Below are positions 11,267 to 62,516 of a stretch of DNA of 64,000 bases, one piece after another; the first letter of the stretch is position 1; each line of letters starts with the position of its first letter. This DNA comes from Flavobacteriia bacterium (GTDB taxonomy: Bacteria > Bacteroidota > Bacteroidia > Flavobacteriales > Weeksellaceae). A model generated the notes under the pieces. It did not search any database. It had not been told where the DNA came from and saw only the letters and a program-made list of their open reading frames with translations. Both the position numbers and the translations under genes were made by a program. Location: NCBI GenBank assembly GCA_015999765.1, contig JAECQR010000001.1, forward strand, positions 1-64,000, read 5' to 3'.

Positions 11267-11286
11267 GTTTTCCATTAAAAAACCAC

Positions 11287-11607
11287 AAGAAAAACTGTAA
11301 GCCGGATTCTGTACATTCGCCGGAGCGAAAGTGCCTGTTATTTATCTGCGCTTTACATTGCTGCAAAGCTTTAGCTGTTTACCCCTCGGTTTTTGGAGCG
11401 AGCAACTCCTATCCCGGCGAACCGGGAAATCCGATATACTTAACATTGCACCGCAAAGAGTTTACCTGGTTTCACTATAAATTAATATACATACTTTCTG
11501 TTGCACTGGTCCTGATCTCACGACCGACGGGTGTTACCCGCTTTGCTGCTCTGTGGTGTCCGGACTTTCCTACCCCGGTTTCCCGGAATCAACAGGCCGT
11601 TTTTCTT
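11287..11607 (-). ncRNA. rnpB: RNase P RNA (bacterial type A)
   Basis: This is the RNA subunit of RNase P, which trims tRNA 5' ends. On the minus strand the 5' region contains the conserved GGAAAGTCCGGACACCACAG. The 3' region contains GTACAGAATCCGGCTTAC, the hallmark 3' end. The helix P1 is visible as AAGAAAAAC near 11599-11607 pairing with GTTTTTCTT at 11287-11295, which fixes both ends and gives about 321 nt. The conserved ACCCGTCGGTCGTGAGAT-like segment lies in between. The reading frames that cross this stretch are not genes. Confidence 0.95.
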
Positions 11608-11671
11608 ATGGAGGGCAAAGATAAAGAATTTTCAAGTTTTCCGGTTAACAATTGTCTGGACTAAAATTTGG

Positions 11672-12593: not shown

Positions 12594-12716
12594 ACCCATA
12601 GCCCTGATTGAAGCGGCATCCTTTTTTGACATTGCGCCTCCGAATCTTCCGACGGGTTGCTTCACCCTTGTTCGCAATGACAAAAAAGATACAGCGGAAA
12701 GCAGGTTCCCGGCTCC
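12594..12716. repeat. Composite interspersed repeat, copy B
   Basis: The outer arms are TAGCCCTGATTGAAGCGGC and ATACAGCGGAAAGCAGG, ending CCCGGCT. A second inverted repeat (ACATTGCG and CGCAATGA) is nested between them. The short CTTTTTT and AAAAAAG runs flanking the insert pair with each other. It lies between the convergent MscS and sucC genes, next to their shared terminator. Related copies are at 60-165 and 37141-37222. Confidence 0.75.
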
Positions 12717-33575: not shown

Positions 33576-34017
33576 CGGAGAAGAAGAAGACCTCAACATA
33601 GGGTTAGTACGCCTTGCCAAAGATGTACCCGCTCACGAACTTTTCTACCACCTCAATTCGCAGAATTCTTTTACTTTTTCACGCATTTCAGACCTTGCTT
33701 TCGAGGGGAACTACAACGATTATTTTTTTCCGAGATTCCGTGCTTTTCACTGTGATTCCAAACTTTGCATCCATTTTATTTCAAATAAATCTTCTCACCA
33801 CATTCAGAAAAAAATTTCATCCGAACTCTTTTCCGGTGAAACTGAAACCAAATTCCTTTTCGAACATTTTCAGGACGTAGATTATATCATGAAAACATCA
33901 GAGCCATTTGATGATTTTTCCGTAATTTTGCTCCCTGAAAATCTGCTGTTCCAAATACAGAATTTTCGTCTGAGCCCCTCTGAGGAGCTTTATCAATTAA
34001 TTCAATATTATGAATAA
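33544..34017 (+). CDS. IPExxxVDY-family protein
   Basis: This 157-residue protein belongs to the Bacteroidota-only family named after a short conserved segment; here it reads FQDVDYIMK near residue 112. The only workable start is a TTG inside the end of rnc (MKTQKILLDID), because the next ATG would remove most of the protein. The 32-bp overlap with rnc and the 8-bp overlap with pyk point to translational coupling on both sides. It is mostly alpha/beta, with no signal peptide or membrane helix. The function is unknown. Confidence 0.8.
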   Translation: MKTQKILLDIDGEEEDLNIGLVRLAKDVPAHELFYHLNSQNSFTFSRISDLAFEGNYNDYFFPRFRAFHCDSKLCIHFISNKSSHHIQKKISSELFSGETETKFLFEHFQDVDYIMKTSEPFDDFSVILLPENLLFQIQNFRLSPSEELYQLIQYYE

Positions 34018-35455
34018 ATATCTAAAAAAAACCAAAATTATCGCAACACTTGGACCTGCTTCATCCGACAAGGAAACAATGCTGCAGCTCATCCAGGCAG
34101 GGACCGATATTTTCAGAATAAATTTTTCTCACGCCGATTACGATTTAGTTAAAAGAAACGTTTCCACCATTCGCGAACTCAACCAGGAACACGGTTTCTC
34201 GGTAGGGATTCTCGGTGACCTTCAGGGTCCGAAACTCCGCGTAGGTATTGTAAAGGAAGGCTCCTATCTTAACCCGGGAGATGTTCTTACTTTCACCAAC
34301 GAAAAAATAGAAGGAGACTCATCGAGGGTTTATATGACTTATCAGAAATTCCCTCAAGATGTAAAAGTCGGGGAAAGAATCCTTATTGATGACGGTAAAC
34401 TGGTTTTAGAAGTTATTGAAACCAACGAAATTGATACCGTAAGAGCAAAAACAATACAGGGTGGACCGCTGAGTTCTAAAAAAGGGGTGAACCTTCCGAA
34501 CACCAATGTTTCGCTTCCCGCACTTACTGAAAAAGATGTGGAAGACGCGAACTTCATGCTTGATCTGGAACTGGACTGGATCGCTTTATCCTTCGTGCGC
34601 CATGCACAGGATATTATAGACCTGAAGGAACTCATGAAAAAGCATCCTACCAACAAACTGAAAACTCCGATCATCGCAAAAATCGAGAAGCCGGAAGGGG
34701 TAAGAAACATTGAACATATCCTGCAGGAATGTGACGGACTGATGGTTGCCCGCGGAGATTTGGGTGTGGAAGTTCCTATGGAAGAAGTTCCTGCCATCCA
34801 GAAAAACCTGGTGGAAATCGCCCGAAAATACGCAAAACCTGTAATCATTGCTACCCAGATGATGGAGACGATGATCACAAGTTTAACGCCAACCAGAGCT
34901 GAAGTAAACGACGTTGCAAACTCGGTGCTCGATGGTGCTGATGCGGTGATGCTTTCCGGGGAAACTTCGGTGGGTAAATATCCGGTTGATGTGGTAAAAA
35001 ACATGTCGAAGATTGTGAAGAATATTGAGCAGACTCATTTCTACCAAAACAAAAACTCTCCAATCGAGCACGAATTCAACTGTGTTGATGAGCGTTTTAT
35101 TACGAACAGGGTTTGTCTGGCAGCGGTAAGGATTGCAAAATCTGCGAATGTAGAAGCGATTGTTACGCTGACCTACTCAGGTTACACGGCGTTCCAGATT
35201 TCGGCGCACAGACCGAACTCGAATATCATTGTATTCTCTTCCAACAAACGAGTTCTTACAATGCTGAACCTGCTTTGGGGCGTGCGTGCGTTCTATTACG
35301 ATATGCAGAAGTCTACTGACGAAACCATTATTCAGGTGAATATGCTGGCGCACAGCAACGGTTTTGTAGAGCAGGGCGATTTTGTAATCAACCTGAACGC
35401 AACACCGGCTTACGAAGGCGGTAAAACAAATACACTTAGATTAACGACGATTTAA
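34010..35455 (+). CDS. pyk: Pyruvate kinase
   Basis: This glycolytic enzyme makes pyruvate and ATP from phosphoenolpyruvate and ADP. It has 481 residues. The barrel domain starts KTKIIATLGPASSDKETM. The catalytic lysine and metal site are in TPIIAKIEKPEGVRNIEHI and GLMVARGDLGVEVPMEEVP. The effector-type C-domain has AIVTLTYSGYTAFQISAHRPN. The start overlaps the preceding gene by 8 bp. It ends the operon, with a strong terminator 20 bp downstream. Confidence 0.97.
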   Translation: MNKYLKKTKIIATLGPASSDKETMLQLIQAGTDIFRINFSHADYDLVKRNVSTIRELNQEHGFSVGILGDLQGPKLRVGIVKEGSYLNPGDVLTFTNEKIEGDSSRVYMTYQKFPQDVKVGERILIDDGKLVLEVIETNEIDTVRAKTIQGGPLSSKKGVNLPNTNVSLPALTEKDVEDANFMLDLELDWIALSFVRHAQDIIDLKELMKKHPTNKLKTPIIAKIEKPEGVRNIEHILQECDGLMVARGDLGVEVPMEEVPAIQKNLVEIARKYAKPVIIATQMMETMITSLTPTRAEVNDVANSVLDGADAVMLSGETSVGKYPVDVVKNMSKIVKNIEQTHFYQNKNSPIEHEFNCVDERFITNRVCLAAVRIAKSANVEAIVTLTYSGYTAFQISAHRPNSNIIVFSSNKRVLTMLNLLWGVRAFYYDMQKSTDETIIQVNMLAHSNGFVEQGDFVINLNATPAYEGGKTNTLRLTTI

Positions 35456-35475: not shown

Positions 35476-35503
35476 AAAGCCCGCCGATATGGTGGGCTTT
35501 TTT
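35476..35503 (+). terminator. Terminator of the acpP-pyk operon
   Basis: AAAGCCCGCC pairs with GGTGGGCTTT (one G-T pair) around a 5-base loop, followed by a T-run. Confidence 0.88.
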
Positions 35504-35548
35504 ATGTTTCGATGACTGAAGCGGAAGAATATCGTTCCATTCGACAAC

Positions 35549-35779
35549 GTTCCGGTTCTGGATGTGAATGTTTAGGTCCGGAACATCATCTTTTAGGTTC
35601 CCGACACCAATCTTTAGGTGCAGAGTGTAAAGTTTTAGGTTTCTGACTTAAAATTTTAGGTCGGTAACGTAAAGTTTTAGGCTATTGAGGTAAATCTTTA
35701 GGTTTCGGAGGTAAACTTTCTTGTACTGGACGTAAATCTTTAGGAACGGAACCGGAAGGTTTGAAATGGTGGGCGGAAT
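35549..35779. repeat. 21-bp degenerate tandem repeat array 1
   Basis: Eleven consecutive 21-bp units fill this gap between pyk and the unknown gene at 35815. The best units begin at 35591, 35612, 35633, 35654, 35675 and 35696. The consensus is YTTTAGGT, about five variable bases, then ACGTAAAN. Spacing is exactly 21 bp over all eleven units although identity is only partial. Weaker units extend to about 35507 and 35800. There are no unique spacers, so it is not a CRISPR array. Two arrays with the same period and different sequences occur at 50180 and 62391. Confidence 0.85.
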
Positions 35780-35814: not shown

Positions 35815-36633
35815 TTAAACGAATTCTTTCTTTAATTGATTAATCATAGATGTTGGTATATTTTGAACTTCTCCGTTATCATAGAGTAATACTATCTTGT
35901 AATCCCCATGAAATTCATTTGCAATTTCTTCTAAATAACTAGATGCAGAAAAGAAATCACTTTCAAAAAAAATAAAAACAAATGATCGGATCTCTTTTAT
36001 TATTTGATAATGTGAAGATATCAATGAAAGGGAATCTATATCATTATACTTTTCCATATCCCTTCTTGTTTCAAATCTCCAATGATAGTCTTGCGATAAA
36101 AGAGATTCTATATCTATTAAATAAAAAACTTTAGCAAGTGAAATATCAGCTTCACAACCGAATTTAGTTATTGGCAAATTTTTGTGTTGAGCAAAATTTC
36201 TTAATTGATCGCAAAATCTATATTCAAAATTTTTATCGAAAATCTCGCTTAAAAACGCTTTTAAAGATATTCTTTGGTATTGGTTGAGCAATCTTGGTAT
36301 GTGGTCTATTAATACTCTATAAGAACTTAAATAATTTAACAGTAATCTATTTAGATTTATCATTATTTTATTCAATATTTCTTCATTTGGTTTTAATGGA
36401 GATCCTGAACCTTTAATAAGTTCAACAGTGTTAGATTTTAACTGACTATCAAATTCATTGTAGTTCTGTTCCACGATTGAAAAATAACATTGAATTTCAT
36501 TTAGCAGATGAATTATTTTGAGGTTGAATGCGATCTCCTCTACTTCATCTGAATCTAAAATTCTCAAATTGTCAATTTTAATTGTATAATCTTTAATTAC
36601 CTCTTTTGCAAGCGTTATATTCATAAGATTCAT
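35815..36633 (-). CDS. Unknown AT-rich gene with HEPN-like RX4H motif
   Basis: I do not recognise this 272-residue protein. It is predicted mostly alpha-helical, acidic and soluble, with no signal peptide or membrane helix. One segment, CDQLRNFAQHKNLPI at about 141-155, has the RX4H pattern (R145, H150). HEPN-domain RNases and related nucleotide-binding proteins use that pattern, but assignment to HEPN is inference from this motif and the helical character alone. Codon use is clearly richer in A/T than in neighbouring genes, which suggests transfer. It is 8 bp downstream of a small membrane protein gene on the same strand. Confidence 0.7.
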   Translation of the reverse strand: MNLMNITLAKEVIKDYTIKIDNLRILDSDEVEEIAFNLKIIHLLNEIQCYFSIVEQNYNEFDSQLKSNTVELIKGSGSPLKPNEEILNKIMINLNRLLLNYLSSYRVLIDHIPRLLNQYQRISLKAFLSEIFDKNFEYRFCDQLRNFAQHKNLPITKFGCEADISLAKVFYLIDIESLLSQDYHWRFETRRDMEKYNDIDSLSLISSHYQIIKEIRSFVFIFFESDFFSASSYLEEIANEFHGDYKIVLLYDNGEVQNIPTSMINQLKKEFV

Positions 36634-36641
36634 TATCTAGT

Positions 36642-37004
36642 TCATTTTTCAATGAACTTTCTTATTTCTTTTATAATATTATAAAAACCAATTAAAACGT
36701 AGCCCACCACAATATATCCAAAGAATCCAACAAATAAAAGTATAATAGCACTTAGTAAAATATCAGATCCAGGATACTTTGTGCCGTTTAGAACACCTAC
36801 TATGATTAGTGATAAGATCAAATAAGCCGTATAACGAATTGATACTTTTTTAATCCTATTAACAAAAAACACGGCAACAATTGCGAATAAACAAATTACA
36901 CCAAAAAAAAGAAATGCATAACCTTTACAAATATCACAAAACCCCGAATTTCCTAATTCATCGGAATAATCTAGAAATTCGTTGTAATATCTATCCATAA
37001 TCAA
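36642..37004 (-). CDS. Unknown three-helix membrane protein
   Basis: This 120-residue protein has a short acidic N-terminus containing a CxxC pair (GFCDICKG at about 21-28). Three hydrophobic helices follow at about 28-48, 56-73 and 82-107, with a basic C-terminal tail. No family is recognised. The gene is AT-rich like its downstream neighbour and probably co-transcribed with it. The pair lies between a 21-bp repeat array and a composite repeat, an accessory-looking position between pyk and groEL. The start could also be the ATG two codons later. Confidence 0.65.
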   Translation of the reverse strand: MIMDRYYNEFLDYSDELGNSGFCDICKGYAFLFFGVICLFAIVAVFFVNRIKKVSIRYTAYLILSLIIVGVLNGTKYPGSDILLSAIILLFVGFFGYIVVGYVLIGFYNIIKEIRKFIEK

Positions 37005-37140: not shown

Positions 37141-37222
37141 CCCTAGCCCTGATCGCAGCGACATCCTTTTTGTGACGAGGCACGAGGAACAAAAAGATAC
37201 AGCGGAGAGCAGGTTCCCGGCT
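37141..37222. repeat. Composite interspersed repeat, copy C
   Basis: The outer arms CCCTAGCCCTGATCGCAGCG and GATACAGCGGAGAGCAGG, ending CCCGGCT, match copy B at 12594 closely. The middle is a short GTGACGAGGCACGAGGAAC in place of the nested repeat. TTTTTGT and ACAAAAA flank the middle and pair with each other. It lies directly beyond the groEL terminator. The other copies also sit beyond the terminator of a minus-strand gene. Confidence 0.75.
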
Positions 37223-37320: not shown

Positions 37321-38994
<1,674 letters not shown>

Positions 38995-62390: not shown

Positions 62391-62516
62391 TACATTCTTA
62401 TCTATGCAGAGTACATTCTTGCTTACGAAAGTTCAATTCTTGTGTATGCAAACCACATTCTTGTCTTTGTAAGTTCAGTTCTTGAGTATGTAAATAATAT
62501 TCCCACTTTTGTAATG
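62391..62516. repeat. 21-bp degenerate tandem repeat array 3
   Basis: Six units of exactly 21 bp start at 62391, 62412, 62433, 62454, 62475 and 62496. The consensus is ACATTCTTG, two to three bases, TATGTAAGT. The last unit is weaker, and a seventh may follow. The array begins right after the queA stop and ends 35 bp before the next gene. It shares its period and general form (T-rich box, variable core, GTAA box) with array 1. Confidence 0.8.

Follow-up and report, generated by a model that had tools for sequence, protein, structure and literature searches.

The window analysed here, that is the whole stretch of 64,000 nucleotides, carries a tandem array of short units between two convergent genes. 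On its left side lies pyk (34010–35455, plus strand), which encodes pyruvate kinase, was assigned by the Pfam PK domain in relatives and is present in all 36 Kaistella genomes. It is followed by a hairpin resembling an intrinsic terminator (about 35476–35504, plus strand, read from the sequence), and beyond this hairpin the array extends over 35549–35779, without an assigned strand. To the right, two AT-rich genes on the minus strand encode 272 amino acids (35815–36633) and 120 amino acids (36642–37004), neither of which matched a Pfam family, and next comes groEL (37321–38988, minus strand), recognized from its translation and found in the same order in relatives. The AT-rich pair, beside which the original prediction had placed the array, was without a tblastn match at 20 pyk loci of relatives, including one that stops 0.6 kb past pyk; it was rejected as a partner and is regarded as variable cargo outside the element. 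An Rfam scan of the window at gathering score yielded four matches, none over the array: three to Flavo-1 sRNA (58–167, 12596–12712 and 37141–37220, the last between the cargo genes and groEL) and one to RNase P (11282–11608).

A TTTAGGT box had been predicted to recur every 21 bp without slippage, and this was borne out. The first exact box occupies 35571–35577 on the plus strand, further exact boxes start at 35592, 35613, 35634, 35655 and 35697, and no indel is visible in this register (35571 + 21k with k = 0 to 8, to 35739) from 35549 to about 35779. Six of the nine units (k = 0–4 and 6) contain the exact box, and it is degenerate at k = 5 (TTTAGGC), 7 and 8. Autocorrelation reached z 8.38 at lag 21 and z 9.01 at lag 42, compared with maxima of z 5.73 over lags 12–59 and z 5.05 at lags 21/42 when the entire window of 64 kb was shuffled 120 times under a first-order Markov model; Tandem Repeats Finder reported periods of 21 and 42 bp here, too. 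With 14 matches to TTTAGGT in the whole window against 10.2 expected, the box alone is not rare, and what exceeds chance is its regular spacing. Concerning the alternating second box and the five-base core, the core of 5 bp was confirmed, but ACGTAAA is exact in only two of the nine units. The companion box fits better as a degenerate form of ACCTAAA, the reverse complement of TTTAGGT, for which reason the unit is an imperfect 21-bp palindrome, TTT[A/G]GGTTC-N-GAACC[T/C]AAA. Ten units (35549–35758) lie above the threshold of the unit profile; the eleventh of the eleven units originally counted is weak and appears at a lower threshold only. With its 21-bp units and about five variable core bases, the array does not show the layout of a CRISPR array, in which constant repeats alternate with unique spacers as long as the repeat.

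The source genome belongs to Kaistella by its near relatives (K. montana, K. palustris), and a pattern search in it revealed a second array on the contig of the window, at a distance of about 445 kb. Among 30 Kaistella pyk loci examined, 11 carry an array at most 1.5 kb downstream of pyk, each with a top lag of 21 or 42 and two with an additional short lag-14 stretch; in K. montana the array stands in the same place with another box, TTTGGGGTTC..CCTCATT. A covariance model built from 41 three-unit segments matched 21 of the 36 Kaistella genomes at E 0.001. Between Kaistella species the boxes vary and the phase is retained: with a profile lacking any spacing constraint, 160 of 169 neighbouring unit pairs were spaced by 21 bp, nine by 22 and none by 20, three arrays being counted twice. 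The window array (G000) and its counterpart in G045 (312 of 360 aligned bases of the region identical) are separated by a single gap of 63 bp, equal to three units, and by no further indel inside the array. Alignments with G020 were poor and did not resolve the array (199 of 347 bases identical with G000, 226 of 391 with G045), and the gain or loss of whole units is documented by the one clean orthologue pair, G000/G045.

The same spacing was encountered far outside Kaistella. At 36 loci of other genera GGTT–GGTT pairs accumulated at distances of 21 bp (30 pairs), 42 bp (21), 43 bp (8), 63 bp (19) and 64 bp (12), compared with one pair at 16 bp and three at 26 bp, and two control regions contained no such pair at 21 or 42 bp. 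In other genera, families and classes, arrays whose sequences are unrelated hold a period of 21 to 22 bp; the two-turn period was retained at 19 of 24 loci within the class and at all seven loci outside it, and the distant consensus units have no sequence in common by eye. It is therefore the spacing that is conserved rather than the sequence, as the original prediction had supposed. The profile check that it proposed uncovered further arrays, the change in unit number with the phase kept was observed, and the outcomes named as speaking against it, namely a lack of other arrays, random spacing or insertions breaking the phase, were not seen. A coding repeat, for which 21 bp would correspond to seven codons, was rejected, since relatives use periods of 22 and 43 bp. 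Two 21-bp arrays of Chryseobacterium (L055, 18990–19238, and L064, 18467–18704) can be read as seven-residue repeats (e.g., LGITLLT and HYGNSLL) and may be either coding or spurious ORFs. Likewise in Chryseobacterium, runs of the heptamers GCAATAA or GCAGTAA with lags of 14, 21 and 28 follow directly after pyk at L050, L067 and L070.

Dyad symmetry is a second property shared by the arrays: for 62 of 77 arrays at most 10 of 200 column permutations equalled the observed symmetry, and for 56 of them at most two did. Compensation between the unit halves beyond the array consensus was not detected, the observed value being reached in 505 of 2000 shuffles; a high covariation count was obtained mainly for the pair 4–18 and is taken as a reflection of differences between arrays. 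Arrays that share a genome but not a site score higher in mutual similarity than arrays differing in both (0.692 vs 0.626; 0 of 2000 label shuffles), as would follow from a single factor reading them or from sequence exchange between arrays. Same-site arrays of different genomes reach 0.689, as high as within a genome, in values uncorrected for phylogeny.

At many unrelated sites an unnamed gene family encoding proteins of about 160 amino acids, which start with MP[IL]xNLNN, was found directly 5′ of the arrays. A second subfamily is about 40% identical, and the proteins of the two subfamilies are acidic (mean pI 5.5 and 4.9). The AlphaFold2 model of the family protein is all-alpha (pLDDT 86). 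No cut-off was reached in Pfam or NCBIfam, the best weak match being the MobP3 relaxase (E 0.0021; 17.8 bits where the cut-off is 150); PHROG gave weak matches only, none below E 0.02. A DNA-binding domain was not recognized, no relative in the PDB was found by sequence, and Foldseek returned no structure at E 0.001 or better for the model; in a second structural comparison the best Z was 3.6, a value of little meaning for long helices. In overlapping genome samples, the family was present in 19 of 36 Kaistella genomes, 123 of 296 genomes (15 of 33 genera) of the taxonomic family and 39 of 395 genomes of the order, and with a broader alignment in 33 of 395 genomes of the class and 21 of 296 of the phylum. 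In every group the G+C content of the gene lies above that of its locus (Kaistella 0.48 vs 0.40). A phage origin was rejected, as 17 pattern matches in viral contigs included no relative and one query protein remained unmatched in phages; a plasmid origin was rejected likewise, one query protein being unmatched in the plasmid collection. At L288, L295 and L317 a small helix-turn-helix gene ends 26–29 nt before the family gene, with which it may form one operon. At four further loci (L305, L306, L316 and L318, recognized by eye) the upstream gene lies on the opposite strand and belongs to a single family, DUF559 according to the neighbour tally.

Starting from the gene, an array was scored when autocorrelation within 700 nt gave a z of at least 4.5 with a top lag of 20–22, 41–44, 63 or 64. 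By this measure an array lies downstream of 26 of 27 family genes in Kaistella, of 35 of 36 in other genera and of 17 of 20 genes of the second subfamily, as well as at three of seven further loci of the order and 19 of 24 of the class, and upstream in five of the 114 rows of the main scan. Since L333 and L356 are the same place, 113 distinct loci remain, with an array 3′ of the gene at 100 and 5′ at four of them; one Kaistella remnant (L262) could not be scored. The same scan was applied to 12 loci, two of them already counted; the ten new ones contributed seven downstream arrays (top lag 21, 42 or 43; z 6.1–13.5) and one upstream array, and all seven new loci from outside the class have a downstream array. 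Across the phylum, a two-turn array (21–22 or 42–44 bp) is thus situated directly 3′ of the gene at 107 and 5′ at five of 123 loci, counts that are not independent because the loci are best-scoring matches with many close relatives among them (e.g., L311 and L312). For a rough comparison, 1.65 Mb of named pyk contigs, scanned at the stricter threshold of z 6, yielded four lag-21/42 arrays that lie neither in long ORFs nor near family genes. The linkage of gene and array extends across the Bacteroidota. At L264 a lag-22 signal (z 6.3) was noted upstream of the family gene.

Starting from the array, the association was looser. Of 47 Kaistella arrays found in this way (36 away from pyk, 11 at pyk), 19 have a family gene or gene remnant next to them and 28 have neither, and five genomes (G012, G015, G044, G045 and G023) contain arrays and no family gene. 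Arrays consequently do not need the gene nearby; at such orphan arrays it may have been lost, may act in trans or may not be the sole user. Between pyk and the array, the family gene is found in five relatives (G003, G043, G049, G010 and G002), in G010 broken by a stop, and six pyk-site arrays, that of the window included, are without it. The window array is an orphan, and of the gene family the source genome has a single match, a C-terminal remnant next to the second array. For the pyk site, loss of the gene would be the simpler explanation. In the source genome, a 22-bp palindromic array, TGAAAC..GTTTCA (L009, 4160–4260; z 9.1), is located upstream of the gene remnant.

The window array is one of many arrays in the Bacteroidota whose sequence is free to change and whose spacing amounts to two helical turns, and the gene family with an array usually directly behind it points to a previously undescribed protein–DNA element. 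Its arrays are phased and palindromic and gain or lose whole units. The two-turn period across unrelated sequences, the dyad symmetry and the change by whole units fit binding sites on one face of the DNA. We tentatively propose, with a probability of roughly 45%, that the array is a series of protein-binding sites with helical phasing and dyad symmetry, whose probable user is the linked protein of about 160 amino acids; the 28 of 47 Kaistella arrays without the gene lower our confidence. Also against it stand the acidity of the protein, for which neither a DNA-binding domain nor a structural relative was recognized, the lack of compensation between unit halves, and the family genes with no array downstream. 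With one palindrome per two turns, the sites would share one face of the helix. A protein would bind there, and the candidate binder is the family protein or a complex that it joins, by analogy with initiators on iterons or ParR on parC. Such a putative nucleoprotein array may silence or insulate its neighbours, or have a part in maintenance or defence. If this holds, an undescribed pairing of gene and array exists across a major bacterial phylum, in which helical phase and symmetry are selected and sequence is not, and the pairing may also bear on where certain defence genes come to sit in these genomes. The reading would predict that the linked protein binds its own array and that a half-turn shift of one unit abolishes the binding.

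Known systems offer partial parallels. Iterons of plasmid replication, e.g., of R6K and RK2, are tandem sites of about 20–22 bp on one helix face, in cis to the gene of their partner protein. The arrays resemble them in being helically phased tandem repeats, within the range of 17–22 bp, with a protein gene linked in cis; they differ by their location on chromosomal contigs, at several sites per genome, by palindromic units, by the lack of a recognized initiator and by the query protein unmatched among plasmids. The ParR/parC centromeres, e.g., of pSK41, combine tandem repeats of about 20 bp with an actin-like ParM and a ribbon-helix-helix (RHH) ParR. Phased repeats adjoining the gene of a small helical protein are common to both, whereas here the array lies 3′ of the gene, no fold match for the family protein was found, and the 25 most frequent families in each set of neighbours included neither a ParM-like nor an RHH ParR gene. 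With the REP, BIME and REPIN palindromes that are associated with RAYT (PMC3733652, PMC3116915), the arrays share their short, intergenic, palindromic nature; they differ in being tandem and phase-locked, few per genome and nearly free in sequence, and, unlike RAYT, the linked gene has no recognized transposase domain. No earlier description of the element was found in full-text literature, a weak absence given that preprints and most subscription journals lie outside the scope of that search.

An alternative that we consider rather unlikely is a neutral satellite, in which palindromic units multiplied by slippage hitch-hike behind the gene and the mutational process sets the period. Degenerate edge units and the likeness of units within one array would agree with it, as would near-identical units at L352 and L374 and the arrays standing without a gene. 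The period has, however, survived the turnover of sequence within and beyond the class, the sole clean orthologue pair differs by whole units, and the arrays are linked to a single gene family, at its 3′ side.

Variable, often AT-rich genes lie beyond the arrays, and an array marking or promoting the acquisition of such cargo on its far side, as a landing or recombination platform, is a further explanation, which we judge unlikely. At the pyk–groEL site, no two of 15 cargo proteins from eight genomes matched each other at E 1e-4; at the esterase site the genomes have only the constant far gene in common. At 16 of 57 loci the two nearest downstream genes include one of defence type (restriction-modification, GmrSD, RloA/RloB-like, TIR or ParE), assigned by scans of single proteins (L161, L162, L174, L217, L227, L296, L304 and L308), by neighbour similarity together with family tallies (L207, L226, L311, L312 and L316) or by reading, a methyltransferase-type motif and the tallies (L163, L165 and L325); L238, ParE-like by eye, and L323, with a candidate model only, were left out of this count. 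On the upstream side one methyltransferase (L238) and one restriction enzyme were found among 102 proteins, within the families listed and including five cut pyk ends. Neighbouring genes were called by a plain ORF finder, 99 of 100 downstream proteins were scanned (L314, 1051 amino acids, was left out), and the four neighbour tallies give the commonest 25 of 148, 68, 91 and 93 families. Against a platform, cargo is still present in five of seven genomes whose pyk–groEL interval has no array, so that the array is not needed for cargo, and in G020 a HigBA-like pair, recognized by eye, stands to the left of the array. Moreover, there is no fixed point of the array at which the cargo begins, no second two-turn array was found beyond it in the pyk–groEL intervals scanned, and no recombinase was noticed in the element, short of a profile search. 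Nor do the intervals resemble integron attC arrays, where each cassette is flanked by recombination sites at both ends, as each contains a single two-turn array on one side of the cargo.

Returning to phased binding sites, a broader version would be a chromosomal element found throughout the Bacteroidota, in which a helical protein reads or builds DNA by geometry, with a two-turn ruler, a dyad and a nearly free sequence, and which marks sites where defence genes accumulate. We regard this extension as doubtful.

An element acting as RNA, in which transcribed tandem hairpins regulate or neutralize the linked protein, appears quite unlikely. The model would be the type III toxin-antitoxin loci, which consist of a repeat array 5′ of the gene of a toxin with a ToxN-like fold. 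A small protein gene with tandem repeats, a patchy multi-copy distribution and defence-rich neighbours are reminiscent of them; read along the strand of the upstream gene, 12 Kaistella arrays contain more G.T than A.C mismatches (152 vs 49), and in 36 of 54 arrays the strand that carries the family gene has the lower folding z. On the other hand, repeat length and symmetry differ, the family protein is predicted to be all-alpha, and the order of gene and array is reversed, an array 5′ of the gene being found at four and 3′ at 100 of the 113 loci. Terminator-like hairpins precede the array in 51 of 101 cases, follow it in 14 and were found on neither side in 41; the strand bias is absent from arrays of the order and class (two G.T-rich and three A.C-rich of 19), folding is weak (mean z −1.8 and −1.4), the window array is without an Rfam match, compensation within the unit was not found, and RNA repeats have no need of a two-turn spacing.

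The array might instead terminate transcription in both directions, or act as an insulator, between convergent genes. The position of the window array and several others and the Kaistella units resembling short stems followed by T would speak for this reading, which is very unlikely in view of co-directional flanks at 62394 of the window, L042 and L053, units without T runs (L165, L368) and separate terminator-like hairpins beside about half of the arrays.

The array at 62394–62494 represents another 21/42-bp array of the window (z 6.7 and 7.8) with a different sequence, ATTCTTGT..CAAA. It is neighboured by a gene on the plus strand and by a gene encoding an O6-methylguanine methyltransferase DNA-binding domain.
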